Shown: positions 8,088-39,758 of the stretch, piece after piece
Layout of the letters: each line of letters begins with the position of its first letter
How positions within the stretch are numbered: position 1 is the first letter of the stretch
Origin: Acinetobacter populi
GTDB lineage: Bacteria > Pseudomonadota > Gammaproteobacteria > Pseudomonadales > Moraxellaceae
Assembly (NCBI RefSeq): GCF_002174125.1
Contig: NZ_NEXX01000006.1
Location: 124,001 to 188,000, forward strand
Length of the DNA: 64,000 nt
Reading direction: 5' to 3'
Position numbers and translations under genes: made by a program
Notes under the pieces: model-generated
The model's input: only the letters and a program-made list of their open reading frames with translations
What the model was told of the DNA's origin: nothing
Database searches by the model: none

Positions 8088-10145
<2,058 letters not shown>

Positions 10146-23663: not shown

Positions 23664-23696
23664 GCTGGATGGCTAACGACTTAAAAGGAAACCGCA

Positions 23697-24974
23697 ATGG
23701 ATGCGAGTTTAAACGATATAGCGACTACCCGGATCGCTAAGAAGAAAATAATCTCATTTAAAACAGCTGTGATTTTCGTCATTGCCTGTAACTTTATTTG
23801 GGCATTTTCTCATACCCTATTGGATGTCTTGAATAAACACTTTCAGGATAAATTTAGCATTTCTCATGGTCAATCTGCTTTTATCCAAACTGCATATTTA
23901 AGTGCCTATTTTATTTCTGCCATTCCTGTTGGCTTCTTAATGAAAAAATATGGCTATAGAAACTCCATTATTGTCGGTTTAACCCTCTTTGCAGTGGGGT
24001 GTATGGGCTTCGTTCCTGCTACACAAGTTGGCACGTTCTCTGCGTTTCTTACAGCAATCTTTATATTAGCCACAGGTTTAGCCTGTTTAGAAATTGTATG
24101 CCTTTTATATGCATCCAAATTGGGTGATCCCTCGGGCGCAGCTCGTCGTTTAACCCTCACCCAAGCTTTTGGTGGTCTCGGTGGCATGTGTGGTCCGATT
24201 GTGGGCGGTGCAGTATTCTTTATCCCGGTAATGCATATTTCAGGTTTTACAGTTGAACCGGCAACGATGACCTATGCTGTCATTTCACTGCTGATTTTTG
24301 CCTTGGTCAGTTATATTCTCACCTTAAGATTCCCTGAGCAAAGTCATACTGACACATCTACAACTGCCCATAATGATAATGTTTTTGAACATTTACCATT
24401 TTCAAAGAACAAAAACCTGCATAAAGGTATGATTGGAAAATTCTGTTATACCGGCGCACATTTCGGAATTGGTGCATTTTTCATTAACTTCGCACTTGAA
24501 CATTGGCATGGCCTTACACCAAGCAAAGCAGCTTACTTTTTATCACTTGCCATGTTCTTCTACATGATGGGACGTTTTGCCGGTATCATCGTCATGAAAT
24601 ATGTTGATCCACGCAAACTCCAAATCTTTAATAGTCTCGTTTGTGCTTTGGGATGTGCTTATATTGCACTTGGCTATGACTATTCCTCTGTAGTCGTACT
24701 GATTGGCTTGTTCTTCTTTAAATCCACCCTCTATCCAACTGTATTCGCAATGGGTGTTCGTGGTATGGGCGAAAAATCACAAATGGCAGCCTCCCTCATG
24801 ATTACCATGTTTGTAGGTGGTGCCATCTTACCTCTCGTCATGGGTTATATCTCGGATATGTCGAATATGGCCACTGCCTTTATTGTACCTGTGATCTGTT
24901 ATCTACTGATCTGTTACTGTGCAATCACTCAAGATTTAACAGGTTATGATCCCAAACAAACCGCTTCTCATTAA
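23697..24974 (+). CDS. FucP-like MFS sugar/H+ symporter
   Basis: This 425-residue major-facilitator carrier has 12 predicted helices and resembles the FucP (L-fucose / glucose-galactose) branch: the first helix ends WAFSHTLLDVLNKHFQ with the acidic residue used in proton coupling, then QSAFIQTAYLSAYFISAIPVGFLMKKYGYR. It follows the IolG-like gene after 95 bases containing a hairpin, and precedes the TIM-barrel gene by 30. With the ABC importer next door, the island has two different uptake routes in this part alone. Confidence 0.85.
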   Translation: MDASLNDIATTRIAKKKIISFKTAVIFVIACNFIWAFSHTLLDVLNKHFQDKFSISHGQSAFIQTAYLSAYFISAIPVGFLMKKYGYRNSIIVGLTLFAVGCMGFVPATQVGTFSAFLTAIFILATGLACLEIVCLLYASKLGDPSGAARRLTLTQAFGGLGGMCGPIVGGAVFFIPVMHISGFTVEPATMTYAVISLLIFALVSYILTLRFPEQSHTDTSTTAHNDNVFEHLPFSKNKNLHKGMIGKFCYTGAHFGIGAFFINFALEHWHGLTPSKAAYFLSLAMFFYMMGRFAGIIVMKYVDPRKLQIFNSLVCALGCAYIALGYDYSSVVVLIGLFFFKSTLYPTVFAMGVRGMGEKSQMAASLMITMFVGGAILPLVMGYISDMSNMATAFIVPVICYLLICYCAITQDLTGYDPKQTASH

Positions 24975-25004
24975 TTCAATCTAGATTTCATTAAGGAAAA
25001 TACC

Positions 25005-25868
25005 ATGAATAAACCGGATTTACTTGCAGCATATTGGACCTTGGCAGGCAATGTTTACCCTGGTGCACCAATAGAAATTAGTCCATTTTCTTTACAGGAA
25101 CGCGTAGAGGCTGCTTCCAAGGCCGGCTGGAAAGGTATTGGTCTGGTTCTCAGTGATCTTTTGGCGACTTTGGAGAAAAATACACTAGCAGATATTCGCC
25201 AGCTCTTTAAAGACAATGATATTAAATATTTTGAACTTGAAATCCTATTAGACTGGTATCTGGATGGCGAAGGCCGTAAAGTATCCGACTATGAACGTTC
25301 CAAAATGATTGAACTGGGTGCTGAACTCGGGATGTGTAATCTAAAAATTGGCGCAAGACCGTTTGAAAACTCGCCAAATTCATTAGATAAATTGGCTGGA
25401 GAATTTTCAAAAATATGTAAAGAAGTTGCTCAGGTGAATGCCAATGTTGCTTTGGAAATCATGCCTTTTTCACGTCTTGCCACCTTGGAAGATGGTTTAA
25501 AAGTTGTTGATACTGGTGATGCAAATGGTGGCTTATGTTTAGACATCTGGCATCTTGCCCGTGGCAATATCGACTTTGAAAAAATTAGTATGGTTCCAGC
25601 CCATTTAATTAAATCTGTTGAGCTCAATGATGCAGCAGAGGACATTCAGGGTGACTTATTCAATGATTCTACACATCATCGTAAACTATGTGGTCAAGGA
25701 TCTTTTGATATTCCTCTATTTTTAAATGAAATTAAAAAAGCTGGTTTTAATCAGCCATATTATGGTGTTGAATTAATTTCACAAGATCACCGTATTCTTT
25801 CACTTGAACAGATGGCCAAAGATGCCTACGACCATACCATTCAAGCCTTTAATCCAGTAGTCGCCTAA
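25005..25868 (+). CDS. Xylose-isomerase-like TIM-barrel protein (isomerase/epimerase or dehydratase)
   Basis: This 287-residue protein is of the AP-endonuclease-2 / sugar phosphate isomerase superfamily, which includes IolE (inosose dehydratase), IolI, hydroxypyruvate isomerase and dehydroshikimate dehydratase. Metal-ligand segments are recognisable: VALEIMPF (Glu), CLDIWHLARG (Asp and His), a late His region and GVELIS (Glu). The exact reaction cannot be assigned. It is the third gene of the dehydrogenase-carrier operon and is followed by a terminator, so it likely acts on the keto product of the IolG-like enzyme. Confidence 0.8.
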   Translation: MNKPDLLAAYWTLAGNVYPGAPIEISPFSLQERVEAASKAGWKGIGLVLSDLLATLEKNTLADIRQLFKDNDIKYFELEILLDWYLDGEGRKVSDYERSKMIELGAELGMCNLKIGARPFENSPNSLDKLAGEFSKICKEVAQVNANVALEIMPFSRLATLEDGLKVVDTGDANGGLCLDIWHLARGNIDFEKISMVPAHLIKSVELNDAAEDIQGDLFNDSTHHRKLCGQGSFDIPLFLNEIKKAGFNQPYYGVELISQDHRILSLEQMAKDAYDHTIQAFNPVVA

Positions 25869-25878
25869 TAATAAACTA

Positions 25879-25915
25879 AAGTCCGAATTGTTAAGAGATA
25901 TAATGATTCGGACTT
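25879..25915 (+). terminator. Terminator of the IolG-like operon
   Basis: The perfect 10-bp stem AAGTCCGAAT / ATTCGGACTT with a 17-base loop begins 11 bases after the stop codon. Confidence 0.75.
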
Positions 25916-26370
25916 ATTCATAAAAAATTAAATTATAAAACCTTATCTCATTTCATTTAAAATATACAAATTAACACATTAAATTCAATCTATATCTTAA
26001 TAAAGATTAACGTTATGCTTCTAATAATAAAATAATAATTTAAATGTCATATAAAATTTGTAAAGCCTTTAACTTTTTTCTCAACAGATTAACCCTCAAC
26101 AATATTAAAAAATCATTGAATTCGATAATTTTAGGAAATCATTCTGTATTTATTTACTTTATGCTCTAATGTGCTTATGTTACTCATCAATAATGCAATC
26201 TTATTAATTGATGAAGTTAACTTATTTTTATCGATCAAATTTTCAAATAAAATATAACTATACTGAATATACAAATGAATCAACATAAATACGTATTTTA
26301 CTTTTCACCAATCTAGAAACTTGCACTAGCACTAACATTCACCATACTCAACAAGAAAGCTATGCACAAA
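25916..26370. other. AT-rich non-coding stretch between convergent operons
   Basis: These 455 bases show no open frame, hairpin or repeat that I can support. Neighbouring genes converge here, so no promoter is required. Confidence 0.5.
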
Positions 26371-26397
26371 AAACCGGGCGAATAGATAACCCGGTTT
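26371..26397 (-). terminator. Terminator of the sugar porter gene
   Basis: The perfect 8-bp stem AAACCGGG / CCCGGTTT is followed on the minus strand by a run of T. Confidence 0.85.
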
Positions 26398-26441
26398 CAA
26401 ATAAAATGTATTGTTACGCTATTTCAGGGACAAATATCTCT

Positions 26442-27854
26442 TTATTTTTTATACCCGATATTTCGTAATCGCTCACCTTTCATCAGATTTCTTTCCAAAG
26501 ATTCCAAACTAACATTTTTAGTTTCCGGCACAAAAAAGTAGACAAAAAATAGGAATATAAAATTCAATACAGCTAAGGCAATAAAGATATTTACAATACC
26601 AAAAATATCATTCAAATATAAGAAATAGGTGGCGACAAGAAAGTTCATTACCCAGTTGGCAAATGTAGAGCAACTCACACCAAACTCACGACCTTGTAAA
26701 GGTTGAATCTCTGCACAGAGTGTCCATACAATTGGACCAGCAGAGAGACCAAAACCGATAATAAATATAATAATACCCGCCAAACCAAATGATGCGATTT
26801 CTTGTGCAAGCCCTAATGTTAAGAGTAATAGTCCTAAAACAATGATCGATAAGCCGCTATATAGCATGGGCTTACGTCCAAACTTATCAATAATAAAAAT
26901 AGAAATAAATGTCGTCACAACAAAGAAAATACCTACAATCATTGTTGAAAATAATTGTGCCGATGTACCACTAAAGCCAGCGAGAGCAAATATTTTAGGC
27001 GCAAAAATTAAAACAATATTAATTCCTGTGAGCTGTTGAATCACTTGCAATGAAATACCCAGAAAAACCGTTTTCCTAAAGAATTTATTATTTAAGAAAA
27101 GTTTAAATCCTTTATGGCTATTTTCTGTGGTTATATTATTTTTAATTTCCTCTAACTCTTGTTTTGCAACCTCTGGGCAAACTCTAAGTTTTGTTAAAAC
27201 TGAAAGTGCCTCATCATTTCGCCCAACAGAAACCAACCATCTTGGGCTCTTGGGAACAAGTAATGCACCAATAAGCAACAAGGTTCCGGGAATAAACAGA
27301 ATAGAGAACATCACTCTCCAGCTGTCCAGAAAGTTCAGTACCCAATTCGATAAAAATGCAGCAAAAATACCAAAACTTAACATAAACTGAAATGTTGAAA
27401 TTGCTCGACCACGAAACTTTTCTGGTGATATTTCTGACACATAAAGCGGTGCAGCAAAAGTTAAAATCCCGACAGAAAGTCCGAGGAAAATACGACCAAT
27501 GACCAGAAGCAGGACTGTACTGGTAAACACACTTAAAACTGTCCCAATTAAAAAAGCAATTGAAGAAATTACGAGCGCTCGGCGTCTACCGACCAATCTG
27601 GAAATAGGAGCTGCAACAATTGCACCAATAATTGCACCAAACATCAAAGAACCAACCACCCATCCTTCCATTAATGAGGAAAGTTGAAACTCTTGTGTAA
27701 TGAGGGGTAATGCACCAGAAACCACACCCACTTCCATGCCATAAGCAAAACCAGCAATTGCAGATATTAATAAAGCATACATCATTGCAACACGTATACT
27801 TTTAGCACTATTAATAATATGATTCGTCGCCATAGTATTTTCAAGTTGATCCAT
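26442..27854 (-). CDS. MFS sugar porter (XylE/GalP/AraE/IolT family)
   Basis: This 470-residue, 12-helix proton-coupled carrier of the sugar-porter family transports hexoses, pentoses or inositols. Signature motifs are GRRRAL after helix 2, GRIFLGLSVGI, PEKFRGR, the central PKSPRWL, QQLTGINI, DKFGRKP and PETKNVSLE. The ATG at 27854 is preceded by AAAGGAT; a TTG farther upstream has no site. It is closely similar along its whole length to the second sugar porter at 35038-36414, so the two are paralogues. It is 164 bases downstream of the second Gfo/Idh gene, with a terminator between, and so probably separately transcribed. Confidence 0.88.
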   Translation of the reverse strand: MDQLENTMATNHIINSAKSIRVAMMYALLISAIAGFAYGMEVGVVSGALPLITQEFQLSSLMEGWVVGSLMFGAIIGAIVAAPISRLVGRRRALVISSIAFLIGTVLSVFTSTVLLLVIGRIFLGLSVGILTFAAPLYVSEISPEKFRGRAISTFQFMLSFGIFAAFLSNWVLNFLDSWRVMFSILFIPGTLLLIGALLVPKSPRWLVSVGRNDEALSVLTKLRVCPEVAKQELEEIKNNITTENSHKGFKLFLNNKFFRKTVFLGISLQVIQQLTGINIVLIFAPKIFALAGFSGTSAQLFSTMIVGIFFVVTTFISIFIIDKFGRKPMLYSGLSIIVLGLLLLTLGLAQEIASFGLAGIIIFIIGFGLSAGPIVWTLCAEIQPLQGREFGVSCSTFANWVMNFLVATYFLYLNDIFGIVNIFIALAVLNFIFLFFVYFFVPETKNVSLESLERNLMKGERLRNIGYKK

Positions 27855-27970
27855 TTTATATCCTTTCCATAACAAACATACCTGTATGGATTCATTATGA
27901 AGAATTTAAAATGGTGAGAATACCGCAGATTAAGAAAAACACTTTTTCGATAATCTTTAAATAAAATAAA

Positions 27971-28001
27971 AAACCTCCACATAATAAATATGTGAAGGTT
28001 T
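27971..28001 (-). terminator. Terminator of the second Gfo/Idh gene
   Basis: The stem AAACCT-CACAT / ATGTG-AGGTTT contains one C-A mismatch (G-U on the minus-strand RNA) and is followed on that strand by TTTTTTATTTT. Confidence 0.8.
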
Positions 28002-28018
28002 ATAATTAAAAGTTAAGA

Positions 28019-29092
28019 TTAAAGAGCTATTTCTGTTCCATTTTGAGCAGCAGATTCAAATAACTTTGCCAACAAAATAGAAATATTATGTGCTTGAGTT
28101 GCAGGTACCTGAGAAGGCTTTTGATTTAAATAAGAATCAAGGAAAGCATTTAATTCACGATCAAAGTAAATTGGATTACCAATTTCTGCAATTTCTGGTG
28201 AATATTCTGTCTTTTTAGTCGCCCAAATCTCAGGGAAACTTGTTTCATGCCACTCAGTCCAGCCTTGTGTTGTGCCATCAACTTTACCGGTTTGATAAAG
28301 TTTATATGATGCCGGCAAAGAACGAGATGACATAATACCTTCTGTGCCGTAAGCAGTCATATCCCAACTTTCAGTCCAAGGCAATACATCCCATGACATG
28401 AAATCAACCACAACGATTTTGTCATCATAAGTGAGAATTGCCCCAGCAGCATCTTCCCGTGACTCATCACCTTTGAAATTTTCGAATTTGGTGATACGGG
28501 CATTAACCGATTTAGGCATCCCAAAATGATAAAGTACTCGGTCAAATAAATGACAACCAATGACAAAAAACGCACCACCTAAATCTCCAGGTTGCCGCAT
28601 ATGTGCCGTTTCAGCTTCATTATGAGAACATCCAGCATGCGCACGAACCTGTAAAACTTTTCCGATTTTGCCGTGTGTTAAGCAATCTTGCATTGCATTG
28701 ATTGAAGGTGCAAAACGCCAACAATAACCAACCTGCACAAAACCATTATACTTTTCTACAGCGTCTACAATGCGTTGCGTATCCTGAACGCCACGCCCAG
28801 CAGGTTTTTCTACAAGCACAGCCTTGCCCTTTTCCAGCGCTGCAATCGTCAGATCCGCCATTTCATAACTTTTGGAATGGACTAAAATGATGTCAATGTC
28901 AGGATTATTCAGAATTTCATCTTTCGTCGATGCTGTGAGACTTAATGCCTCACAAAAAGGCTGTAAAAGTTCACTGTGATCTGCTGCACCGTAAATTTCA
29001 ATATCATCACGTCGTTGTAATGCTTTTACTCGACCAGAAGTATGAGGATGAGTAATCCCTAATAGGGCAACTTTAAGCTTGGCTTTGGGCAT
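28019..29092 (-). CDS. Gfo/Idh/MocA-type oxidoreductase, atypical
   Basis: This 357-residue nucleotide-dependent oxidoreductase is of the Gfo/Idh/MocA family. The usual Gly-rich loop is changed to LLGITHPHTSGR (about residues 10-21), without GxGxxG. The lysine motif VLVEKPAG (about 94) is intact. In GGAFFVIGCHLFDRV the histidine is kept but the aspartate normally four residues earlier is hydrophobic, so the catalytic details may differ from IolG-like enzymes. Its promoter side contains the 44-bp palindrome (29172-29215). It probably processes a cyclitol or sugar derivative imported by the neighbouring porter; the substrate is unknown. Confidence 0.78.
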   Translation of the reverse strand: MPKAKLKVALLGITHPHTSGRVKALQRRDDIEIYGAADHSELLQPFCEALSLTASTKDEILNNPDIDIILVHSKSYEMADLTIAALEKGKAVLVEKPAGRGVQDTQRIVDAVEKYNGFVQVGYCWRFAPSINAMQDCLTHGKIGKVLQVRAHAGCSHNEAETAHMRQPGDLGGAFFVIGCHLFDRVLYHFGMPKSVNARITKFENFKGDESREDAAGAILTYDDKIVVVDFMSWDVLPWTESWDMTAYGTEGIMSSRSLPASYKLYQTGKVDGTTQGWTEWHETSFPEIWATKKTEYSPEIAEIGNPIYFDRELNAFLDSYLNQKPSQVPATQAHNISILLAKLFESAAQNGTEIAL

Positions 29093-29171
29093 GATAGAAC
29101 TCCTGTAAAATACTTTCCGATTTTTTAATGCTGTTAAAACTAACTTTTTCTTTTATGGGGATAAAGTTCTT

Positions 29172-29215
29172 TTTGGGAAAATATTATTTCATGTATGAAA
29201 TAATATTTTCCCAAA
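29172..29215. repeat. Perfect 44-bp palindrome, likely operator
   Basis: Two 21-base arms are exact reverse complements around a 2-base centre (GT at 29193-29194); the core is TTTCATGTATGAAA at 29187-29200. It lies 80-123 bases upstream of the Gfo/Idh gene and 183 bases beyond the LysR stop. There is no T-run on either side, so it does not look like a terminator. A related site with 23 of 28 bases matching lies at 36950-36977. Confidence 0.85.
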
Positions 29216-29397
29216 CGTCGTGAATATCATCATATGAATTCGACTGTAAGCAATGCAAAAGTACATCATCTTTATTCCTGAATGATGTTTTAAAGCAACA
29301 ATAAGCCTCAATAACAGGTAATTCTGCAAACCAAACAAGCTAAAAATGTAATGGTTTGCCCTGCTAAAATTTCAGAATTTCATATCAATATTTTGAA

Positions 29398-30327
29398 TTA
29401 ATTTACAGACTGAATACTACTCCAGTAGCGCTCATATTCATTTAACTTAAAATCTTCAATAAGAAAATCTATAAATAAACGATTTTTAATTGGCATAAAT
29501 TGCCGACTTTGAAATGCAATATTGATTGTTAGTTCAGGTAGGCTCCAATCGGTTAAAATTGGAATTAATCGACCTTCAACAATATCCTGATAAATAATAT
29601 AAAGTGGCTGAATTAAAATACCTGCACCGCTCAATGCTGCGGCTCTTACAATCTGACCATCATTGGTTTCTAAAATCGGATCGATAGTAAAATTAAAAAC
29701 TTCTTCATCTCTGGTGAAGTTTAAAACTCTAGGATTATTTGCATGGCTATAAAGTAAAATATCATGATCTTTTAATTCTTCAATCGCCTTAGGTTTGCCT
29801 CTTTTTTTAATATAATCATATGAAGCAGCAAGAATTCTGCGTGTACTGGCCAATTTTTTTATGGTGATATTTGAGTCAGGTTCAAACTCTCGTGTACGAA
29901 TTGCCAAATCAATATTACTATCAATGATGTCGTAATAACGGTTTGCTCCAACAAGATTGATTTTAATTTTAGGATAAAGTTTATTAAATCTTGATATCAA
30001 GGGCGCCAGATGCATGATTGCAAAGGAAATAGATGATGTAATGGTCACCGTCCCTTCCGGCTCAACAGCAGCGGAACTGATAGAAGACTCGGCTTGATCT
30101 ATTTCAGCCAATAAATCCTTGCATTTTTTATAATATTCCAATCCAATATTAGTCAGTGCTAAACGTCGCGTACTTCTTTCAATCAGTCGAACATTCAAAC
30201 GACTTTCGAGGGCAGCAATATGCCGTGTGGCGGCTGCATTTGAAATCTCTAATGACTCAGCGGCCTTATTAAGTGTACCAAGCTCTGCAACTGCGACAAA
30301 AAGCTCCATGCTGGTCAATCGATCCAT
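29398..30327 (-). CDS. LysR-family transcriptional regulator
   Basis: This 309-residue LysR-type regulator has an N-terminal winged helix-turn-helix (about residues 1-60, ELGTLNKAAESLEISNAAATRHIAALE read across 15-41) and a C-terminal substrate-binding domain with the PEGTVTITSS hinge region. It is divergent from the ring-cleavage operon with 118 bases between the start codons, the classic layout for a LysR activator of an aromatic pathway. It is the only regulator gene in the island, so it is the best candidate to bind the TTTCAT-N2-ATGAAA sites. The inducer is unknown but would be an intermediate such as hydroxyquinol or maleylacetate. Confidence 0.92.
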   Translation of the reverse strand: MDRLTSMELFVAVAELGTLNKAAESLEISNAAATRHIAALESRLNVRLIERSTRRLALTNIGLEYYKKCKDLLAEIDQAESSISSAAVEPEGTVTITSSISFAIMHLAPLISRFNKLYPKIKINLVGANRYYDIIDSNIDLAIRTREFEPDSNITIKKLASTRRILAASYDYIKKRGKPKAIEELKDHDILLYSHANNPRVLNFTRDEEVFNFTIDPILETNDGQIVRAAALSGAGILIQPLYIIYQDIVEGRLIPILTDWSLPELTINIAFQSRQFMPIKNRLFIDFLIEDFKLNEYERYWSSIQSVN

Positions 30328-30352
30328 CGTTTATTCTCCTATTATTCCTAAA

Positions 30353-30389
30353 ATGAAATAAAGATTTTCCTTGGTGACATTTTATTTCA
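30353..30389. promoter_or_regulatory. Inverted half-sites in the lysR / dioxygenase control region
   Basis: ATGAAATAAA (30353-30362) and TTTATTTCA (30381-30389) form a 9-bp inverted repeat with 18 bases between. The half-site ATGAAATAA equals part of each arm of the palindrome at 29172-29215, so the same LysR protein may bind here to control itself and the operon. Confidence 0.45.
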
Positions 30390-30445
30390 AATTACATCAG
30401 CTTAGCATGACAAAAATAGGAATATGGCATTTTTATGGAAAAAAT

Positions 30446-31327
30446 ATGAAAAACTTAGACGAAAGAACGATTACCCAAGCAGTGATAGAACGCAACTCAT
30501 CTTCTGGTAATGAAAGATTGAAAGATGTGATGCATTCTCTAGTCCAACATCTCCATTCATTCGCAAGAGAAATTGAATTAACAGAAGAAGAATGGGAAAT
30601 TGGCATCAAGTTTTTAACAGATGTGGGTCAAATTTGTAGTCCAACTCGTCAGGAATTTATTCTACTCTCCGATACCTTAGGTTTATCCACCTTAGTAATT
30701 GCACAGAATCACAAAAAACCAGTAGGGTGTACAGAAGCAACTGTTTTTGGTCCATTCCATGTCCAAAATGCACCTCGCCTTCCTCTAGGTAGCAATATGA
30801 GTATCGGTGTAAAAGGTACACCCTGGTTTGTCAATGGACAAGTGCGGGGAATCGATGGGAAAGTCATCCCTTATGCAGAAATTGAAGTATGGCAAGCGGA
30901 TGATGATGGTTTTTATGATGTCCAGAAAGAGGGCCTCAATGAATATCAAGGCCGGGCTATTTTTACAGCAGACCAGGAAGGTAAATATTATTTTGAAACA
31001 ATCGTGCCAGAAGCCTACCCTATTCCGCACGATGGACCAGTTGGAAAAATGCTTGAAGCTTTAAATCGTCATCCATGGCGACCAGCTCACTTGCATTTTA
31101 TGATCAGTGCGCCGGGTTATGAGCGTTTGGTTACCCATGTCTTTAAAGAATCTGGCGAATACTTAGATTCAGATGCAGTATTTGGTGTACGATCCTCTCT
31201 CATTGCTGAATGGACCTATCATGAGAATGGTACAGATCAAAATGGACAATTCCATGCTACACCTTTTTATACGCTGGATTTTGATTTTATTCTGAACCAT
31301 AAAAAGGAAGCTGTACGTCATGATTAA
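30446..31327 (+). CDS. Intradiol ring-cleavage dioxygenase, hydroxyquinol 1,2-dioxygenase-like
   Basis: This 293-residue non-haem Fe(III) dioxygenase opens an aromatic 1,2-diol between the hydroxyls; the hydroxyquinol type gives maleylacetate. Evidence is VGCTEATVFGPFHV in the N-terminal part, the Tyr ligand region with EAYPIPHDGPVG (about 190-200), and HPWRPAHLHFMISAPGYERLVTHVF supplying both His ligands (HLH). YPIPxDGPVG and the AHLHF block favour hydroxyquinol over plain catechol dioxygenases, as does the length of 293. The ATG at 30446 has a GGAAAA site; the frame is open upstream to 30371 without one. The stop overlaps the CoA-transferase start by 8 bases. Catechol or chlorocatechol activity is the main alternative. 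Confidence 0.82.
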   Translation: MKNLDERTITQAVIERNSSSGNERLKDVMHSLVQHLHSFAREIELTEEEWEIGIKFLTDVGQICSPTRQEFILLSDTLGLSTLVIAQNHKKPVGCTEATVFGPFHVQNAPRLPLGSNMSIGVKGTPWFVNGQVRGIDGKVIPYAEIEVWQADDDGFYDVQKEGLNEYQGRAIFTADQEGKYYFETIVPEAYPIPHDGPVGKMLEALNRHPWRPAHLHFMISAPGYERLVTHVFKESGEYLDSDAVFGVRSSLIAEWTYHENGTDQNGQFHATPFYTLDFDFILNHKKEAVRHD

Positions 31328-32003
31328 TAAGATTACCACCGCAATAACAGAAACACTGTCCCAGATAAAAGATGGATCAACCATCATGATAGGTGGCTTT
31401 GGTACAGCAGGACAACCCGCTGAACTGATCGATGGTTTAATCGAATTGGGTGTCAAGGATCTGGTGATCATTAATAATAATGCCGGTAATGGCGACTATG
31501 GTCTGGCCAAACTGTTAAAAACCGGTGCGGTCCGTAAAATCATTTGTTCTTTTCCACGTCAATCCGATTCCTGGGTATTCGATGAACTCTATCATGCCGG
31601 CAAAATTGAGCTTGAATTAGTACCACAAGGCAATCTGGCCTGCCGTATTCAGGCTGCCGGTATGGGTTTGGGTGCAGTATTTACCCCAACCGGCTTTGGT
31701 ACATTATTGGCTGAAGGCAAGGAAACCCGTCATATTGATGGCAAAGATTATGTACTGGAATATCCGATCAAAGCAGACTTTGCCCTGATCAAGGCACAAC
31801 AGGGTGATCGCTGGGGCAATCTGGTTTACCGTAAATCGGCACGGAATTTTGGTCCGATTATGGCGATGGCTGCTGATATCACCATTGCTCAGGTTTCAGA
31901 AGTGGTAAAACTGGGAGCACTTGATCCGGAGCATATCATCACCCCGGGTATTTTTGTACAACATGTGGTGGCTGTGGGTACATCACAAGGTCAAGGAGCA
32001 TAA
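31320..32003 (+). CDS. pcaI: 3-oxoadipate CoA-transferase subunit A
   Basis: This 227-residue alpha subunit of succinyl-CoA:3-oxoadipate CoA-transferase (PcaI/CatI) works with the next gene product to activate 3-oxoadipate. Typical blocks are DGSTIMIGGFGTAGQP, NNNAGNGDYGLAKLL and GFGTLLAEGKETR. It starts inside the last codons of the dioxygenase gene (8-base overlap) behind AAGGAAG, so translation is coupled. Codon use is visibly GC-richer than in the lysR and TIM-barrel genes around it, suggesting this three-gene stretch came from a typical chromosomal pca/cat set. Confidence 0.92.
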   Translation: MINKITTAITETLSQIKDGSTIMIGGFGTAGQPAELIDGLIELGVKDLVIINNNAGNGDYGLAKLLKTGAVRKIICSFPRQSDSWVFDELYHAGKIELELVPQGNLACRIQAAGMGLGAVFTPTGFGTLLAEGKETRHIDGKDYVLEYPIKADFALIKAQQGDRWGNLVYRKSARNFGPIMAMAADITIAQVSEVVKLGALDPEHIITPGIFVQHVVAVGTSQGQGA

Positions 32004-32005
32004 AA

Positions 32006-32659
32006 ATGAGCTATACCAAACTGACCCGTGATCAAATTGCTGAGCGTGTGGCACAAGATATTCCCGATGGTGCTTATGTCAATCTCGGTATTGGTTTACC
32101 CACCAAAATTGCCAGTTATTTACCGTCCGATAAAGATGTGTTTTTACATTCCGAAAATGGTTTGCTGGCTTTTGGTCCACCACCTGCCAAAGGTGAGGAA
32201 GATCCGGAATTGATCAATGCCGGAAAAGAGTTTGTCACCATGTTACAAGGTGGTTGTTTTTTCCATCATGGTGATTCCTTTGCCATGATGCGCGGTGGAC
32301 ACTTGGATATCGCAGTATTAGGTGCATTCCAGATTGCTGAAAATGGTGATCTGGCCAACTGGCATACTGGAGCCAAAGACGCCATTCCTGCGGTTGGTGG
32401 TGCCATGGATCTGGCTGTGGGGGCCAAGAAAGTGTTTATTACTACTGATCATGTCACCAAAAAAGGTGAAGCCAAAATTGTTAAGGAACTCAGCTATCCG
32501 GCAACAGGTCTAAAATGCGTGGATCGTATCTATACTGATTTGTGTGTGATTGATGTGACAAGTGATGGCTTAAAAGTGATTGAGAAGGTTGAAGGATTAA
32601 GCTTTAACGAATTACAGTCATTGACTGGTGCAACACTAATTGATGCAACACAGGGTTAA
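32006..32659 (+). CDS. pcaJ: 3-oxoadipate CoA-transferase subunit B
   Basis: This 217-residue beta subunit of the CoA-transferase (PcaJ/CatJ) carries the catalytic glutamate in the HSENGLLAFGPPP region (about residue 50), which forms the covalent CoA thioester. Other family blocks are GAYVNLGIGLPTKIASYLP and MRGGHLDIAVLGAFQ. An AAGGAG site precedes the ATG, 2 bases after the stop of subunit A. It acts as a heterotetramer with subunit A in the cytoplasm. Confidence 0.93.
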   Translation: MSYTKLTRDQIAERVAQDIPDGAYVNLGIGLPTKIASYLPSDKDVFLHSENGLLAFGPPPAKGEEDPELINAGKEFVTMLQGGCFFHHGDSFAMMRGGHLDIAVLGAFQIAENGDLANWHTGAKDAIPAVGGAMDLAVGAKKVFITTDHVTKKGEAKIVKELSYPATGLKCVDRIYTDLCVIDVTSDGLKVIEKVEGLSFNELQSLTGATLIDATQG

Positions 32660-32669
32660 GGAAAACAGC

Positions 32670-33884
32670 ATGTCTACATTAAAAAATGCCTATATCGTCG
32701 ATGCCATCCGTACCCCATTTGGTCGTTATGCTGGTGGACTTGCGCCAGTACGTGCCGATGATCTGGGTGCCATTCCAATTCAGGCATTGATTGCGCGTAA
32801 TCCACAAGTCAATTGGCAACAGGTGGATGATGTCATTTATGGTTGTGCCAATCAGGCGGGTGAAGACAATCGTAATGTTGGACGCATGTCGGCTTTACTG
32901 GCAGGTTTACCATATCAGGTACCAGCAACCACCATTAATCGTTTATGTGGGTCATCACTGGATGCTATCGCGATTGCTGCTCGTGCCATCAAGGCAGGTG
33001 AAGCAGATTTAATGATTGCTGGTGGTGTTGAAAGCATGAGCCGTGCGCCTTATGTGATGGGTAAATCAGACAGTGCTTATGGACGTAGCCAGAAGATTGA
33101 AGACACCACCATGGGTTGGCGTTTTATCAATCCAAAGCTGAAAGAATTGTATGGTGTAGATACCATGCCACAAACTGCTGAAAATGTAGCAGAGCAATTT
33201 CAGATTAATCGTGCCGATCAAGACCTGTTTGCCTTAAACAGTCAACAACGCACGGCGGCAGCACAGGCCAAAGGTTATTTTAAACAAGAAATTATCCCGG
33301 TCACGATTGCACAGCGTAAAGGCGATGCCATCGTAATTGACACTGATGAGCATCCACGCACTTCAACGACACTGGAAGGTTTAAGCAAACTCAAAGGTGT
33401 GGTTAAAGCTGACGGTACAGTGACTGCGGGTAATGCATCAGGGATTAATGATGGTGCAGCAGCAGTCTTGATTGCGTCTGATCAGGCGGTGCAAGATTAT
33501 GGTTTAACCCCTAGAGCGCGGATTGTTGCGGCAACAACAGTGGGTGTAGAACCCCGGATTATGGGATTTGCGCCAGCGCCTGCAATCAAAAAGTTATTAA
33601 AACAGGCTAATCTGACCCTGGATCAGATGGATGTGATTGAGCTGAATGAAGCGTTTGCAGCACAGGCTTTGGCAGTGACTCGTAATTTAGGATTGGCAGA
33701 TGATGATATACGTATCAATCCCAATGGTGGTGCCATTGCATTGGGTCATCCATTAGGTGCCTCAGGTGCCAGACTGGTCATTACAGCCTTAAACCAACTG
33801 GAACAAACGGGTGGGAAATATGGTTTGTGTTCGATGTGTATTGGGGTAGGTCAAGGTATTGCATTGATTATTGAAAAACTATAA
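32670..33884 (+). CDS. pcaF: 3-oxoadipyl-CoA thiolase
   Basis: This 404-residue thiolase splits 3-oxoadipyl-CoA into succinyl-CoA and acetyl-CoA, the final step of the beta-ketoadipate route. The nucleophilic cysteine is in [14 protein letters not shown] (Cys93); the other catalytic residues are in [11 protein letters not shown] (His, about 360) and [10 protein letters not shown] (Cys, about 391). The ATG at 32670 has a TTAAGGAAAA site; the frame is open to 32640 without one. It is the last gene of the ring-cleavage operon and is followed by a strong terminator. The products feed the TCA genes 8 kb away. Confidence 0.95.
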
Positions 33885-33902
33885 CCCTTAAGATATTTTT
33901 AG

Positions 33903-33930
33903 AAAATGGATTATTTTTAATCCATTTTTT
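33903..33930 (+). terminator. Terminator of the ring-cleavage operon
   Basis: The perfect 11-bp stem AAAATGGATTA / TAATCCATTTT with a 4-base loop and trailing T begins 19 bases after the thiolase stop. Confidence 0.88.
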
Positions 33931-34123
33931 ATTTCATCAGCTTAATATTAATAATTATTACTTTATTAAAAAATTACTGACTATTTATTTTTAAAAATTT
34001 ATTTAAGATAATAAATTTGAAATTCTGAATTTAAAAAATAGGATGGTATTTAAAAATAAAACATATTAAATAATTACCCTATTACTTCTTTGTAATTTTT
34101 TTAATATTTAAGGATAAATATTT

Positions 34124-35023
34124 ATGTGTAATAAATTAGTGATGCCATTTTCGAATGTTTTACATTTAAATTTTCGAGATAAATTAAAGGTAATGAATAT
34201 CGCGGAGTTTAACTCCATGTCTATACAGCCACAGGAAATCAAAAAAATTATGGCTGAAGAAAAAATTAAAATTACAGATATCAAAAAAATTGCTGCTGAT
34301 TATGGTGTAACCATCACTAGGCTAGATCCACTATGCACATGGGTTCCAAAATGGGAAACCAAAAATTTCGGTTCATCTTTTAACGATGGGCATTCCACTA
34401 CACCTCAAGAATTCTTTGAAATAGCGACAGCACTTGAAGTACAAATTATGAGCTTAAATGCAACCTTTCCAGAAGGAACGTATAGTACAGAACAATTATC
34501 TGAATTCTTTTATACCATTGATTCTATGGCAAATGATCATGGCATATTATGTGGACTGGAAGCTATTCCAATGTGGGGTGTTAAAACCATTGCACAAGCA
34601 TGGGATATTGTAAATGGATCCGGATCTAAAATGGGAGGAATTGTAATTGATACTTTGCATTTTGTTCGAGGAAATTCTACCTTGGAAATGTTGGATAAAA
34701 TTCCTTCTAATAGATTTCATAATATTCAAATATGTGATGGACCATTAAATTTACCTGAAAATAAAACTTTAGAAGATGAATGTTTTTCCAGAATGTGGCC
34801 TGGAGATGGAGAGTTTCCTTTAATTGAAATTTTAAAATATCTTAAAGAAAGAAAAGTTTTACGTGAAGTATGTGCAGAAGTCTTTTCATATACAAATAAG
34901 AATAAATCTCTTGAAGAAATTGCAACTTTATCTCGAGAGAAAGTAGAAAATCTTTTTACAAAAGCAGGGATTTCCTATTCAGATCTACAATCTAATTTGA
35001 CCATTAAGAACTTTAATCAATAA
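34124..35023 (+). CDS. Second xylose-isomerase-like TIM-barrel protein (isomerase or dehydratase)
   Basis: This 299-residue sugar-phosphate-isomerase-like TIM barrel is clearly different from the one at 25005-25868. Probable metal ligands lie in CGLEAIPMWG (Glu), GIVIDTLHFVRGN (Asp and His), QICDGPL and CAEVFS (Glu). IolE inosose dehydratase and QuiC/AsbF dehydroshikimate dehydratase share this fold, so a dehydration that helps aromatise a ring is a reasonable guess; isomerase activity is equally possible. The start is supported by AAGGATA. It is very AT-rich, unlike the preceding thiolase. The next gene, a sugar porter, begins 14 bases later in the same unit. Confidence 0.78.
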   Translation: MCNKLVMPFSNVLHLNFRDKLKVMNIAEFNSMSIQPQEIKKIMAEEKIKITDIKKIAADYGVTITRLDPLCTWVPKWETKNFGSSFNDGHSTTPQEFFEIATALEVQIMSLNATFPEGTYSTEQLSEFFYTIDSMANDHGILCGLEAIPMWGVKTIAQAWDIVNGSGSKMGGIVIDTLHFVRGNSTLEMLDKIPSNRFHNIQICDGPLNLPENKTLEDECFSRMWPGDGEFPLIEILKYLKERKVLREVCAEVFSYTNKNKSLEEIATLSREKVENLFTKAGISYSDLQSNLTIKNFNQ

Positions 35024-35037
35024 AAAGGAATTTCAAC

Positions 35038-36414
35038 ATGGGTAAATATATTAACTTTTTTCGGCAGAATATCGCTGTATTTTATGCTATTTTAATTGCT
35101 TCTGTTGCCGGATTTTCTTTTGGTATGGAAAATGGCATTGTTTCCGGTGCTTTAAGTTCCTTAAAAAAAGAATTCCTTTTATCAAGTTTTATGGAAGGAT
35201 GGGTTGTAGGCTCCCTGATGGTAGGTGCCATTATTGGAACAATCATTTCTGCCCCCATTGCAACCAAAATTGGAAGACGTAAAACGCTTATTTTTTCCGC
35301 GTTATGCTTTTTAATATCCGTATCCATCACAATTTTTACCTGGAATGTTCTTGGCCTTATTATCGGTCGTATGCTCTTAGGTTTTTCGGTGGGTATGTTA
35401 ACTTTTTCTGCCCCATTATATATTTCTGAAATTGCTCCAGAAAAATATCGAGGCCGTGCAATCTCTACTTTTCAGTTCATGATTAGCTTTGGTGTATTTT
35501 TTTCGTATTTTTCCAACTGGAGTCTACATTTTTTTGAAAGCTGGCGATTGATGTATTCAGCATTATATATACCGGGCATATTATTATTAATTGGTTCATT
35601 AATTGTACCAAAGAGTCCTAGATGGTTAATTGCGCATGGGAATTATACAGAAGCCTTTAACATTCTATGTAAATTGGGGCACACCAAAACATCAGCAAAA
35701 AATGAATTGGATCAAATAAAAGAAACCATCGCTTCTACAAAAGTTAATCAAGGATTACAACTATTTCTAAATAATAAATATTTTAGGAAATCTGTATTTC
35801 TTGGTGTTTCTTTACAAACTATTCAACAACTGACAGGTGTTAATATTATCCTGATTTTCGGTCCAAAAATATTTGAGCTTGCTGGATTTAATAGTGATTC
35901 TTCTCAATTATTTTCTACTTTAATTATCGGGCTTTTTTTCCTTTTATCTACTTTTATGGCAATCTTTCTTGTAGATAGATTAGGTCGAAAACCTTTGTTA
36001 TATATTGGATTTATCACTATCATTCTTGGCTTAGCATTTCTGAGCATAGGAATTTTATACTTAATACCTATTGTGAGTATTATCAGTATAATTATATTTA
36101 TCGTAGGATTTGGTACATCCGCCGGTCCTGTTATCTGGACCTTATGTTCGGAAATACAACCATCTCATGGTCGAGAATTTGGTGTTAGCTGCTCCACCCT
36201 TTCCAACTGGGCTGTAAATTCTTTAATTGCAACCTATTTCCTTGTACTTAATGATATTTTTGGTATTGTTAATATACTTAACTTTTTAGTCTTGTTAAAT
36301 ATCTTTTTCTTACTTATTTTTTACTTCTTTGTACCAGAAACAAAAAATATTTCTCTAGAAACGATTGAAAGCAATTTACTCAAAGGGAAAAAACTTAGAA
36401 ATATTGGTTTATAG
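35038..36414 (+). CDS. MFS sugar porter, paralogue of the one at 26442-27854
   Basis: This 458-residue, 12-helix carrier of the sugar-porter family has GRRKTL after helix 2, GRMLLGFSVGM, PEKYRGR, PKSPRWL, QQLTGVNI, DRLGRKP and PETKNISLE. It matches the other sugar porter of the island closely along its length, including long identical runs around MEGWVVGSLM and REFGVSCST, so they arose by duplication or joint transfer. It is the second gene of a two-gene unit with the TIM-barrel protein (AAAAAGGAA ribosome site). Substrate is unknown; inositol-type transporters belong to this family. Confidence 0.88.
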   Translation: MGKYINFFRQNIAVFYAILIASVAGFSFGMENGIVSGALSSLKKEFLLSSFMEGWVVGSLMVGAIIGTIISAPIATKIGRRKTLIFSALCFLISVSITIFTWNVLGLIIGRMLLGFSVGMLTFSAPLYISEIAPEKYRGRAISTFQFMISFGVFFSYFSNWSLHFFESWRLMYSALYIPGILLLIGSLIVPKSPRWLIAHGNYTEAFNILCKLGHTKTSAKNELDQIKETIASTKVNQGLQLFLNNKYFRKSVFLGVSLQTIQQLTGVNIILIFGPKIFELAGFNSDSSQLFSTLIIGLFFLLSTFMAIFLVDRLGRKPLLYIGFITIILGLAFLSIGILYLIPIVSIISIIIFIVGFGTSAGPVIWTLCSEIQPSHGREFGVSCSTLSNWAVNSLIATYFLVLNDIFGIVNILNFLVLLNIFFLLIFYFFVPETKNISLETIESNLLKGKKLRNIGL

Positions 36415-36450
36415 CCCTGATGAATTAAATTTTTTGTATAAATAAGCAAA

Positions 36451-36477
36451 TTTCGATTCTATTTATTAGAATCGAAA
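36451..36477 (+). terminator. Hairpin after the second sugar porter
   Basis: The perfect 11-bp stem TTTCGATTCTA / TAGAATCGAAA with a 5-base loop lies 37 bases past the stop codon. No T-run follows, so termination is likely but not certain. Confidence 0.6.
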
Positions 36478-36499
36478 TACCTCACATCAAATTTTTAAA

Positions 36500-36860
36500 A
36501 TTATTTATGTTCAAATACTTATGGACTTAACCAGCCCTTTGTAAAATATCGTCTGATTCAATTGTAGTAATTCCAATATATGCATTTCCGACTAGAAAGT
36601 ATAACCATATACTACATGATCTTTTAATGTATGAAAGAAGCTTGCAGTTACTGCATTATCCCAGCTACCCCTCTCCATAATATACTTTTAATACAATTAC
36701 TTGTCAGAAGGAATCCCCTAAAATCATGACAGTAGTGTGAACAGAAGAAGCATTATTACGCAAGTGAATGAACTATGACATTTGTTGGATAACCCTGATA
36801 AGCTCTATATAATTAAATGTATCACACACCCGCTGCCATTCTATTTTAACGTGGATAAAC
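36500..36860 (-). pseudogene. Relic of an IS3-family transposase (OrfB C-terminal part)
   Basis: The minus strand, read from about 36850 downward, gives broken pieces of an IS3-type OrfB: a CDTFNYI stretch like the usual GDITYI, then GSWDNAVTASFFHTLK like the common CWDNAVAESFFHTLK with the catalytic Glu changed to Ala, then VVYGYTF. One base has been lost after that; restoring it gives YIEIYYNRIRRHST-GWLSP-type sequence, the normal transposase C-terminus. Several stop codons interrupt the frame. No intact ends or orfA were found. It lies between two blocks of the catabolic island and marks past insertion-sequence activity. Confidence 0.7.
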
Positions 36861-36949
36861 TCGTATTTTAAAATTAATAATTTCAAAAATAAAAATACAT
36901 TAAATTATATTAATTTAATGTAAAAACAGAGATAAAAACCTCATTCCAT

Positions 36950-36977
36950 AAGATTCTTTCATCTATGAAAATATATT
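36950..36977. promoter_or_regulatory. Second TTTCAT-N2-ATGAAA site, candidate operator
   Basis: TTTCATCTATGAAA at 36957-36970 repeats the core of the 44-bp palindrome at 29172-29215; over 28 aligned bases 23 are identical. It lies 83 bases upstream of the NTF2-like gene that precedes maleylacetate reductase. It sits inside a larger inverted repeat (AAAAACCTC 36934-36942, GAGGTTTTT 36988-36996) that could act as a terminator when the site is unbound. Confidence 0.6.
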
Positions 36978-37052
36978 TTTCCGAATAGAGGTTTTTTATT
37001 TTCCTACAAAAGTTAGGATTAACTATCTTATTTTTTATGAAATTCTTATGCT

Positions 37053-37418
37053 ATGGACGATATATTAATACAAGAACTGGAAGAAGAGCGTTTTCGATCT
37101 ATTGTCGAAAAGCGCTATGAAGATTTTGCCAAGCTTGCTCATCCAGAAATGATCTATACCCATACCACGGGTATTACTGATACCAAAGATTCATATCTCA
37201 ACAAATTATTTGCAGGTCATTACGATTACAAATGGATTAAGCATCCCATTTCAAAAATCCAGATTGTCGGTGACATTGCTCTGGTTTTTGGAGAAATGCA
37301 TTCCAATTTAATTGCAGGAAATGTAGAGAAAAGTTTAAAAAATAAGTCTCTCGCTGTATGGAAAAAAGAAAATAACGATTGGTTATTTTATGCATATCAA
37401 CCCACACCATTACCGTAA
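37053..37418 (+). CDS. Small NTF2-fold (SnoaL/DUF4440-like) protein
   Basis: This 121-residue protein has the helix-then-curved-sheet pattern of the NTF2-like superfamily (DUF4440/SnoaL): an amphipathic N-terminal helix ending in DFAKLAHPEMIYTHTTG, then VGDIALVFGEMHS and a closing WLFYAYQPTPLP. The superfamily includes ketosteroid isomerase and scytalone dehydratase, so a dehydratase or isomerase role is possible; many members have no known activity. No clear ribosome site precedes the ATG. It ends 11 bases before maleylacetate reductase, and the candidate operator lies upstream, so it belongs to the same unit. Confidence 0.7.
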   Translation: MDDILIQELEEERFRSIVEKRYEDFAKLAHPEMIYTHTTGITDTKDSYLNKLFAGHYDYKWIKHPISKIQIVGDIALVFGEMHSNLIAGNVEKSLKNKSLAVWKKENNDWLFYAYQPTPLP

Positions 37419-37429
37419 GGAAACAGCTC

Positions 37430-38497
37430 ATGAACAACGAATTTATTTATGATATTCCACAAAGCCGCGTCATTTTCGGTGCTGGTTCTCTACATAAACT
37501 TAGAGAAGAGATTGAACGCTTAGGTGCAAAAAAAGCACTGATCTTATGTACCCCGGAACAGGTAAAATTGGCAGAAAAAATTTCAGATTTACTCGGTGAT
37601 GCCTCAGTAGGGATCTTTCCAAAAGCAGTGATGCACGTACCGCTTGAATCTGCACAAGAAGCGCGAAAAGTCGCAAAAGAATTAGGTGCAGATTGTGCTG
37701 TTGCTGTAGGTGGAGGCTCTACAACCGGTTTGGGTAAAGCCATCGCTTTGGAATATGATCTTCCTATTTTAGCAATTCCAACAACTTATGCAGGTTCTGA
37801 AATGACACCTGTGTATGGCATTACAGAAAATGGCATTAAAAAAACAGGAAAAGATCCTCGCGTTTTACCCAAAACTGTTATTTATGATCCCGAATTAACC
37901 CTTACATTGCCATTAGAAATGTCAATTACCAGTGGGATCAATGCCATTGCACATGCTGCCGAAGGTTTGTATGCACAAAATGGTAATCCAATAATGTCGC
38001 TTCTTGCAGAAGAAGGTATTCGGGCATTGGCAGAAGGGCTAAAGAAATTAAAAGTAGATACACACAATATTGAAGCAAGGAGCCTGTGTTTATATGGTGC
38101 CTGGTTATGTGGATATGTCCTCGGGAATGTGGGCATGGCAATCCATCATAAACTCTGTCATACATTAGGCGGCAGTTTCAACCTTCCGCATGCGCCAACC
38201 CATACCGTTATATTAGCGCATGCCATTGCTTACAATGAAAAAGCCGCGCCCGAAGCAATGTCACGCATTAAACGTGCATTAGGTGTAACTGAAGGAACAG
38301 CTGCACAAGCGATTTTCCAACTGATTAGCGAATTAGATGCACCAAAATCATTGTCATCGTTAGGTTTAACACAGGCAGATTTGGACAAAGCCACTGATAT
38401 TGCCCTCTCCAATCCATATTGGAATCCAGAACCTATCGAAAAGAACGCCATTCGTCATTTATTGCAAAATGCTTTTGAAGGGATATCACCTCATTAA
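37430..38497 (+). CDS. Maleylacetate reductase
   Basis: This 355-residue iron-containing-alcohol-dehydrogenase-family enzyme reduces maleylacetate to 3-oxoadipate with NAD(P)H. Family evidence: YDIPQSRVIFGAGSL at the start, the nucleotide-binding VGGGSTTGLGKAIAL, PTTYAGSEMTPVYGIT, and the metal-site histidines in NAIAHAAEGLYA and HHKLCHTLGG. The ATG at 37430 has AAGGAAA at good distance; the frame is open to 37379 without a site. With the dioxygenase (30446) and the CoA-transferase/thiolase genes it completes the path from hydroxyquinol to succinyl-CoA and acetyl-CoA, though it is 3.5 kb away from them in a separate transcript. Confidence 0.9.
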   Translation: MNNEFIYDIPQSRVIFGAGSLHKLREEIERLGAKKALILCTPEQVKLAEKISDLLGDASVGIFPKAVMHVPLESAQEARKVAKELGADCAVAVGGGSTTGLGKAIALEYDLPILAIPTTYAGSEMTPVYGITENGIKKTGKDPRVLPKTVIYDPELTLTLPLEMSITSGINAIAHAAEGLYAQNGNPIMSLLAEEGIRALAEGLKKLKVDTHNIEARSLCLYGAWLCGYVLGNVGMAIHHKLCHTLGGSFNLPHAPTHTVILAHAIAYNEKAAPEAMSRIKRALGVTEGTAAQAIFQLISELDAPKSLSSLGLTQADLDKATDIALSNPYWNPEPIEKNAIRHLLQNAFEGISPH

Positions 38498-38576
38498 CGA
38501 GAACAACCGTTTAATATCGCCTATCTATACCTTATTTTAGATAGGTTCATTTTTTTCAAAAAAGGATCTTTTGAAG

Positions 38577-39758
38577 ATGAAAAAACTTTCATTATTTTTA
38601 GCTACCACAGTCATCACCACGTCCCAAATTACCATTGGCGCTGAAATTCATGGTTATTTCCGAACGGGAATGGGCACCACAGACAATGGTCAGACGCAAG
38701 AATGCTTTCAATTAACCGGCGCACCCTCTAAATATCGTCTAGGCAATGAATGTGAACAATATGGTGAACTATTTGCATCACAAAATTTATTGCAGTTATC
38801 TGATGACTCTAAAATCAATATCAATGGAATGGCGCAATTCTATAACCAGTATGGACAAACCTTAAGCTTTAATGGTGAGAATGGCTATACCCGTATGAGC
38901 CAAATCTACCTAGACTGGACAAATGTTTCCTTTTTAAATGGTGGAAATTTTTGGACAGGAAGAAGATATTACAATCGTAATGATAGCCATATATCTGACT
39001 TTTTTTATTGGAATCAAAGCGGCACCGGCTTTGGTATAGACCATTATCAACTAGAAAAATTTGCCTTGAGCTACGTCTTTTCACGAAAAGATAACCTCTT
39101 TCAGGAAGATTATGTTAATCGACATGACCTCACAATGAGTGATTTAGCCATCAATGATCGTAACAAGTTAAATATCGGCTTATCATATATTGATGATGAA
39201 AACAGTGGGTGGGCGTTAACGCTACAGAATATTACTGCCGATGTATTGAATGGTAAGAATACACTCGCTCTCCAATACGGTGAAGGTCCTGGTACTGGTT
39301 TAGGCTATACAGGTAATACAGACTTAAATCGTAACAATACATCGTTTAGATTTGTAGAAGTACTGGACTGGGAAAGTGAAAATAAAAAATTCAATGGTCA
39401 AGCCCAGTTCATCTATCAAAAAAATATCCTACAAGAATCGCCCAATAATGACTGGTTATCTCTCGGTTCAAGAACAGCCTATGTCGTAAGTGACCATTTT
39501 AAAATTTCAACAGAAGTTGGTTTTGACCAAATTAAAACCGACCACGAAAAAAGAAACATGACTAAATTAACGCTTGCACCAACCTGGTCAATGAAAGGAA
39601 CAGGTTTTTATGATCGACCAGAGCTTCGTGTTTATTATACCTATGCGTTCTGGAACGATGCTGAGCAACAATTAAGAGATCAAGTTAATCCTGACAATGA
39701 TTTTTATCGGATATCTCATGGTTCCAATTTTGGTCTTCAACTGGAATATGGTTGGTAA
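38577..39758 (+). CDS. LamB-type (maltoporin family) carbohydrate porin
   Basis: This 393-residue outer-membrane porin of the LamB family lets sugars or similar polyols enter the periplasm. A signal peptide (about residues 1-22) precedes EIHGYFRTGMG, and GAPSKYRLGNECEQYGELF, WTGRRYYNRNDSHISDFFYWNQSG and the final aromatic residue of EYGW are typical of LamB proteins. The ATG at 38577 has an AAGGATC site; a TTG six bases earlier is less likely. It follows maleylacetate reductase after 79 bases and is the last gene of the island, so it probably serves uptake of the island's substrate rather than maltodextrins. Confidence 0.85.
   Translation: MKKLSLFLATTVITTSQITIGAEIHGYFRTGMGTTDNGQTQECFQLTGAPSKYRLGNECEQYGELFASQNLLQLSDDSKININGMAQFYNQYGQTLSFNGENGYTRMSQIYLDWTNVSFLNGGNFWTGRRYYNRNDSHISDFFYWNQSGTGFGIDHYQLEKFALSYVFSRKDNLFQEDYVNRHDLTMSDLAINDRNKLNIGLSYIDDENSGWALTLQNITADVLNGKNTLALQYGEGPGTGLGYTGNTDLNRNNTSFRFVEVLDWESENKKFNGQAQFIYQKNILQESPNNDWLSLGSRTAYVVSDHFKISTEVGFDQIKTDHEKRNMTKLTLAPTWSMKGTGFYDRPELRVYYTYAFWNDAEQQLRDQVNPDNDFYRISHGSNFGLQLEYGW

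Follow-up and report, generated by a model that had tools for sequence, protein, structure and literature searches.

A TTTC-N6-GAAA palindrome as candidate operator of a LysR-type regulator at promoters of a hydroxyquinol and sugar-alcohol gene cluster in Acinetobacter populi

In Acinetobacter, the LysR-type regulators BenM and CatM regulate aromatic ring-cleavage genes, and their operator has the form ATAC-N7-GTAT. According to PMC5603801, LysR-type regulators recognise T-N11-A at about -65 and occupy another site at about -35; the paper presents PnpR/PnpM as a case of LysR-type regulation, that of para-nitrophenol (hydroquinone) degradation in Pseudomonas sp. WBC-3. Here we followed up a palindrome that a first-pass annotation had picked out in a 64,000-nucleotide stretch of the Acinetobacter populi genome (hereafter the window, with positions counted from its first base). 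What began as a motif seen by eye is now a candidate regulon, spanning four candidate promoters for which start sites are predicted, across a group of Acinetobacter species.

The first-pass annotation had paired two copies of the core TTTCAT-N2-ATGAAA, and both are present without a mismatch: TTTCATGTATGAAA at 29187-29200 and TTTCATCTATGAAA at 36957-36970. Recomputing the alignment of 36950-36977 with 29180-29207 again gave 23 of 28 identical bases. A genome-wide scan for the core, which the annotation had suggested as a check, returned only three matches in 3.69 Mb (3,686,702 bases in 12 contigs), two of them in the window, beginning at 29187 and 36957, and one on another contig. Under a first-order model built on the window, 0.04 exact cores are expected per 64 kb and 2.35 per 3.69 Mb, versus the 2 and 3 observed, and the occurrence of two exact cores within 7.8 kb is unusual. 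The third copy (C1:9671) overlaps the start codon of a small HigB-like ORF and was rejected as a regulon site; this toxin-like ORF, named by eye, adjoins a possible HTH protein, also named by eye. With up to two mismatches allowed, the core was not enriched in the window (13 found versus 13.2 expected from shuffles), and for this reason the core alone is weak evidence. The case for an element rests on its conservation and its position.

We assigned the element to four promoters, one of which, that of site A, had been overlooked in the first pass. The sites and their predicted -10 hexamers are as follows:

22437-22450, plus strand: site A, TTTCAAAAATGAAA, upstream of the iolG-type dehydrogenase; a less certain member
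22495-22500, plus strand: predicted -10 hexamer of A, TACCCT, 52 bp from the palindrome centre
29172-29215, minus strand: site B, a perfect 44-bp palindrome with TTTCATGTATGAAA in its middle, upstream of the Gfo/Idh oxidoreductase
29137-29142, minus strand: predicted -10 hexamer of B, TAGTTT, 52 bp from the centre (TAACTT or TAACGT in six relatives)
30341-30370, plus strand: site C, ATTATTCCTAAAATGAAATAA followed by a downstream half-site, in the gap between the divergent lysR and dioxygenase genes
30403-30408, plus strand: predicted -10 hexamer of C, TAGCAT, 52 bp from the centre (six relatives have the same hexamer; the genome G113 has TAGGAT)
36957-36970, plus strand: site D, TTTC-N6-GAAA upstream of the DUF4440, maleylacetate reductase and lamB genes
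37014-37019, plus strand: predicted -10 hexamer of D, TAGGAT, 51 bp from the centre

The full unit is longer than the palindrome: TTTC-N6-GAAA is followed 6 or 7 bases on, about one turn downstream, by a TTTC-like half-site, which at site D extends to about 36982. The 14-mer of site C (30345-30358) has one mismatch to TTTC-N6-GAAA, reading TTCC, in the window and in the genome G086. The related half-sites that the first-pass annotation had reported from the lysR/dioxygenase gap, ATGAAATAA (30353-30361) and TTATTTCA (30382-30389), are present, but the operator is better placed at 30341-30370, with TTATTTCA as an extra half-site. Promoters C (30382-30389) and A (22477-22480), and also site D of G113, have one more TTTC half-site, which lies some 34 bases from the centre, near the predicted -35 region.

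Site B has arms of 21 bases around a 2-base centre; of the 13 inverted repeats listed for the window, it alone is fully complementary, and it is also the longest perfect one without a gap. If transcription of lysR read through, B could give a 21-bp stem, as might be expected if the palindromes acted as hairpins in RNA, such as terminators or attenuators, and not as DNA bound by a protein. We rejected this reading as highly improbable: long uninterrupted stems are missing from sites A, C and D, no T-run follows B, and B was not listed in a terminator scan of 22000-37200. With the predicted -10 hexamers about 52 bp downstream of them, the sites also fall outside the predicted transcripts.

The upstream regions of orthologous genes in other Acinetobacter genomes carry the same element at the four promoters. 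We compared the window with six orthologues over 36 bp starting 4 bp before the palindrome. This footprint was the best conserved stretch of its promoter at site A (0.94, upstream flank 0.59) and site B (0.81, upstream flank 0.34), and at site D (0.80, upstream flank 0.36) it tied with windows 34 and 37 bases in; the 14-mer of site D had 0.90 identity to its six orthologues versus 0.36 upstream. Site C, at 0.75, did not stand out from its flanks (0.73 and 0.72), and as lysR coding sequence makes up part of the upstream flank, the comparison is uninformative for this site.

At all 31 sites compared (seven of A, seven of B, eight of C and nine of D), a TANNNT hexamer begins 51-53 bp away from the centre of the palindrome, and 28 of them have it at exactly 52 bp. 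When offsets from 25 to 94 were scanned, the joint score was highest at 52 (13.8; best outside 51-53, 3.9), and independent rotation of the four site profiles reached that score in a fraction 1.5e-4 of 20,000 trials, figures to be read with the following in mind: the spacing had been seen by eye before the test, the -10 matrix was an assumed one, orthologues are not independent (each site entered once, as a mean), and the hexamer is not always the best of its own row. Descent of the promoters from one ancestor is a possible alternative source of the constant spacing. The region holds hardly more consensus promoters than expected (66 versus 56.9, sd 6.5), and a promoter scan found no good -35 at the predicted promoters.

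Taking the hexamer as the -10 box would centre the palindrome near -64, a dyad position that fits the neighbourhood of -65 typical of LysR-type promoters. Transcription would then be predicted to begin about 12 bp past the first base of each hexamer (22495, 30403 and 37014 on the plus strand, 29142 on the minus strand). T-N11-A is present in all four window sites, but off the symmetry axis; the on-axis spacing is T-N10-A or T-N12-A. All four promoters have a TTTC-like tetramer at +14/+15 from the centre, in keeping with an activation half-site, with best mean matches (of 4) of 4.0 at B, 4.0 at C, 3.4 at D and a weak 3.0 at A.

The genes concerned are these:

22555-23601, plus strand: inositol 2-dehydrogenase IolG, behind site A (TIGR04380, 361.7 bits versus a cut-off of 355)
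25005-25868, plus strand: xylose-isomerase-like TIM-barrel protein, two genes after iolG
28019-29092, minus strand: Gfo/Idh/MocA oxidoreductase, behind site B
29398-30327, minus strand: LysR-type regulator (HTH_1 and LysR_substrate), candidate binder of the sites
30446-31327, plus strand: intradiol dioxygenase, best solved matches named 6-chlorohydroxyquinol and hydroxyquinol 1,2-dioxygenase
31320-33884, plus strand: 3-oxoacid CoA-transferase subunits A and B and 3-oxoadipyl-CoA thiolase
37053-37418, plus strand: DUF4440 protein, the first gene behind site D
37430-38497, plus strand: probable maleylacetate reductase, from solved-structure matches
38577-39758, plus strand: LamB-type sugar porin

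The regulator carries PF00126 (N-terminal HTH_1, E 8.8e-18) and PF03466 (C-terminal LysR_substrate, E 5.8e-32), which place it in the LysR family, and its best solved match is the LysR-family protein 3hhg, which we take to be CrgA (E 4.7e-49 over residues 7-294). No NCBIfam model scored above its cut-off for the dioxygenase. The best solved match of the probable maleylacetate reductase, 3jzd, is named iron-containing alcohol dehydrogenase and the next two are named maleylacetate reductase (solved-structure matches at E 7.5e-118 and 2.8e-116).

Across 18194-39758, IolG, Gfo/Idh and TIM-barrel proteins, sugar porters, a ChvE/GguAB-type transporter and LamB are encoded beside the hydroxyquinol ring-cleavage genes. 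A TIM-barrel gene and a sugar porter (34124-36414) sit between the thiolase and site D, and these genes have no match at that place in the relatives' loci. From the sugar porter to site D (36420-36900) there is no ORF of at least 90 aa, and the DNA looks, by eye, like a decayed gene or insertion-sequence remains.

A strict extended pattern, TTTC-N6-GAAA-N-AA-N3-TTTC with at most one mismatch, gave 6 genome matches versus 10 for its reversed control and recovered only B among the four sites, on both strands. Because the half-site spacing varies by one base, such a pattern is too rigid, and we therefore used a sequence-only profile, trained on 21 sites from other species, all of types B, C or D, with the window sequence and the A sites excluded. 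When 150 of 6667 first-look candidates in the A. populi genome were scored, the three best distinct places were C (27.8 bits, E 8.8e-6), B (24.3 bits, E 1.1e-4) and D (18.0 bits, E 0.011), matches on orthologous sites being partly expected because the training species are close relatives. Next came places at 14.7 and 14.1 bits, then A, which is not significant by itself (14.0 bits, E 0.19); in eight relatives, site A gave no profile match at E <= 0.3. We inspected four of the weaker places in the A. populi genome and rejected them as members. L039 coincides with an ORF start and L044 falls within an ORF; L042 is a short way upstream of an activator-like ORF, and L040 is where an IclR-like ORF begins that has Rieske-type ORFs as neighbours (names given by eye). 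L040 is unlinked to hydroxyquinol genes, and its match is confined to profile positions 24-44, the downstream part.

A scan of 173 genomes of the genus found a match at E <= 0.003 in 14: nine with the cluster or its G113 variant, and five others with one match each, at 21-23 bits, where about 0.5 were expected. These five matches fall within ORFs, at an ORF end or in gaps between ORFs; no hydroxyquinol genes occur in the 3 kb examined, and we did not accept them as members. Since the nine, apart from the A. populi genome itself, supplied the training sites, only their contrast with the other genomes is informative. A chance repeat in AT-rich intergenic DNA would suit the finding that cores with two mismatches are no commoner than in shuffles; conservation at orthologous promoters, the fixed distance to the -10 hexamer and the ranking of the sites in the whole genome leave that reading a next to negligible probability.

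The cluster, with a DUF4440 protein 79-81% identical, occurs in seven further genomes, so that 8 of 175 in the genus have it, A. populi included. LysR orthologues (E <= 1e-90) are found in 8 of 175 (13 candidates scored per genome listed), and all eight have strong profile matches at the cluster. The ninth of the genomes with the cluster or its G113 variant is G004, one of the 8 with the cluster itself, which is cut there by a contig end; strong matches lie at the cluster there too. At E <= 1e-80, Gfo/Idh and IolG were each found in 7 of 175 genomes, the same seven for both, again counting A. populi. Among named genome records, where records near the window's own may be absent, a LysR more than 60% identical is present in six, all Acinetobacter and including A. 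albensis, within the best 80 of 182 relatives; the remaining 74 of those 80 have at most 37% identity.

In G113 (C12:50000-68000), the LysR is 66% and the DUF4440 protein 39% identical to those of the window. The neighbours there are a flavin reductase, an acyl-CoA-dehydrogenase-like protein and an amidohydrolase, with an IclR_C protein near the upper-pathway genes, and no IolG or Gfo/Idh orthologue was found at E <= 1e-80. G113 has sites C and D, the latter with one mismatch; both show TANNNT at 52, and both are in the training set. This context suggests that the LysR goes with the hydroxyquinol genes, as part of that half of the cluster, and that its inducer may be hydroxyquinol or a later product. 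The A. populi genome has a second hydroxyquinol cluster (C8:98000-117000), with a dioxygenase 38%, a maleylacetate reductase 49% and a DUF4440 protein 35% identical; its LysR proteins are 27.5 and 29.5% identical to the window's LysR, and no TTTC-N6-GAAA occurs in its 19 kb. A third hydroxyquinol cluster, in G031, has two TTTC-N6-GAAA, at 596 and 4192, outside its genes at 6057-16692.

The sites might instead serve another regulator encoded elsewhere, for example of the IclR, LacI or GntR type, with the adjacent LysR having a different operator. An even-spaced symmetric palindrome is not textbook LysR spacing, and the IclR_C protein of G113 points the same way. We nevertheless judge this unlikely. 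LysR is the only regulator recognised among the scanned ORFs of at least 110 aa in 22555-39758; it is divergent from a presumed target with which it shares a promoter region (lysR at 29398-30327 on the minus strand, dioxygenase from 30446 on the plus strand), and site C lies between the two, in lysR's own promoter. The -64 position suits a LysR protein, and G113, despite a different upper pathway, has sites C and D alongside the LysR.

We consider it very probable, from these sequence comparisons, that the palindrome is the operator of the LysR encoded at 29398-30327 and serves a small regulon of B, C and D and, less surely, A. A small regulon had been proposed in the first pass, and it is supported by the few genomic matches, the conservation at orthologous promoters, the near-constant distance to a -10-like hexamer and the matches in all eight LysR-bearing genomes of the genus; its scope has widened from three promoters to four, and the operator is longer than first described. 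LysR would bind TTTC-N6-GAAA centred near -64 and, one turn further downstream, would also reach the weaker half-site. Given an inducer, for which hydroxyquinol and the products of ring cleavage are the probable candidates, it would activate the Gfo/Idh gene (B), the lysR/dioxygenase operon (C), the DUF4440-maleylacetate reductase-lamB unit (D) and, less surely, the iolG operon (A). What we infer here is that LysR binds the sites and that it activates and does not repress, together with the inducer and where the operons begin and end. The hydroxyquinol pathway and the adjoining sugar-alcohol genes are probably switched on together.

That the iolG operon belongs to the regulon is itself somewhat more likely than not. 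An overlapping account, in which B, C and D form the LysR regulon and site A is a chance resemblance, with iolG controlled otherwise, is a possibility of lesser weight that we take seriously: at A, TTTT replaces the downstream TTTC, the G086 copy reads TGTC, the profile score is only the 14.0 bits given above, and TTTC-N6-GAAA by itself is expected about 2.7 times per 64 kb. Against a separate A stand its footprint, the best conserved of its promoter, and a TANNNT at exactly 52 bp in 7 of 7 genomes.

LysR control of all four promoters would tie sugar-alcohol-type genes (iolG, Gfo/Idh, lamB) to hydroxyquinol ring cleavage and, if real, points to the pathway's substrate class and to a direct way to the inducer. 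As for the classical myo-inositol (iol) pathway, IolG is present and IolD was not found: none of the nine genomes exceeds the TIGR04377 cut-off of 715 bits (best 210.1), versus 3 of 14 control genomes, which disfavours that route. We tentatively propose another, on which we would not insist, leading from a cyclitol (a deoxyinositol such as quercitol, or inositol) by way of hydroxyquinol and maleylacetate to 3-oxoadipate. The cyclitol would be oxidised by the IolG/Gfo-type dehydrogenases, the TIM-barrel and DUF4440 proteins would dehydrate and aromatise the product to hydroxyquinol, and the dioxygenase would open the ring, with maleylacetate leading to 3-oxoadipate. On this view the cyclitol genes (A and B) would have been added to a LysR circuit for hydroxyquinol that was already in place (C and D, also in G113). 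The formulae balance, from deoxyinositol, C6H12O5, by oxidation to C6H10O5 and, minus two waters, to hydroxyquinol, C6H6O3. The route fits the gene set and the formulae; its enzyme steps and substrate we infer only. We found no literature tying cyclitols to hydroxyquinol, as judged from titles, abstract openings and term counts, with few subscription papers covered. This proposed route is the more novel part, beside a LysR circuit of a known kind.

A LysR-type switch is a well-known kind of control circuit, of which the candidate regulon would be a further member. The G113 locus presumably resembles gamma-resorcylate/resorcinol-to-hydroxyquinol clusters; it has the same LysR, operator and lower hydroxyquinol genes as the window, and differs in its amidohydrolase, flavin reductase and acyl-CoA-dehydrogenase-like genes and in the absence of IolG and Gfo/Idh orthologues at the threshold used. 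BenM and CatM are of the same genus and regulator type, but they are distant from the window's LysR (45-50 bits) and their operator differs. The PnpR system (PMC5603801) is alike in having one LysR-type regulator for several separate catabolic operons, one with maleylacetate reductase, and a recognition site near -65 with a second near -35; its upper pathway and genus are different. Unlike the PnpR system, the Acinetobacter populi cluster has an even-spaced TTTC-N6-GAAA, and its candidate regulon takes in cyclitol/sugar-type genes.
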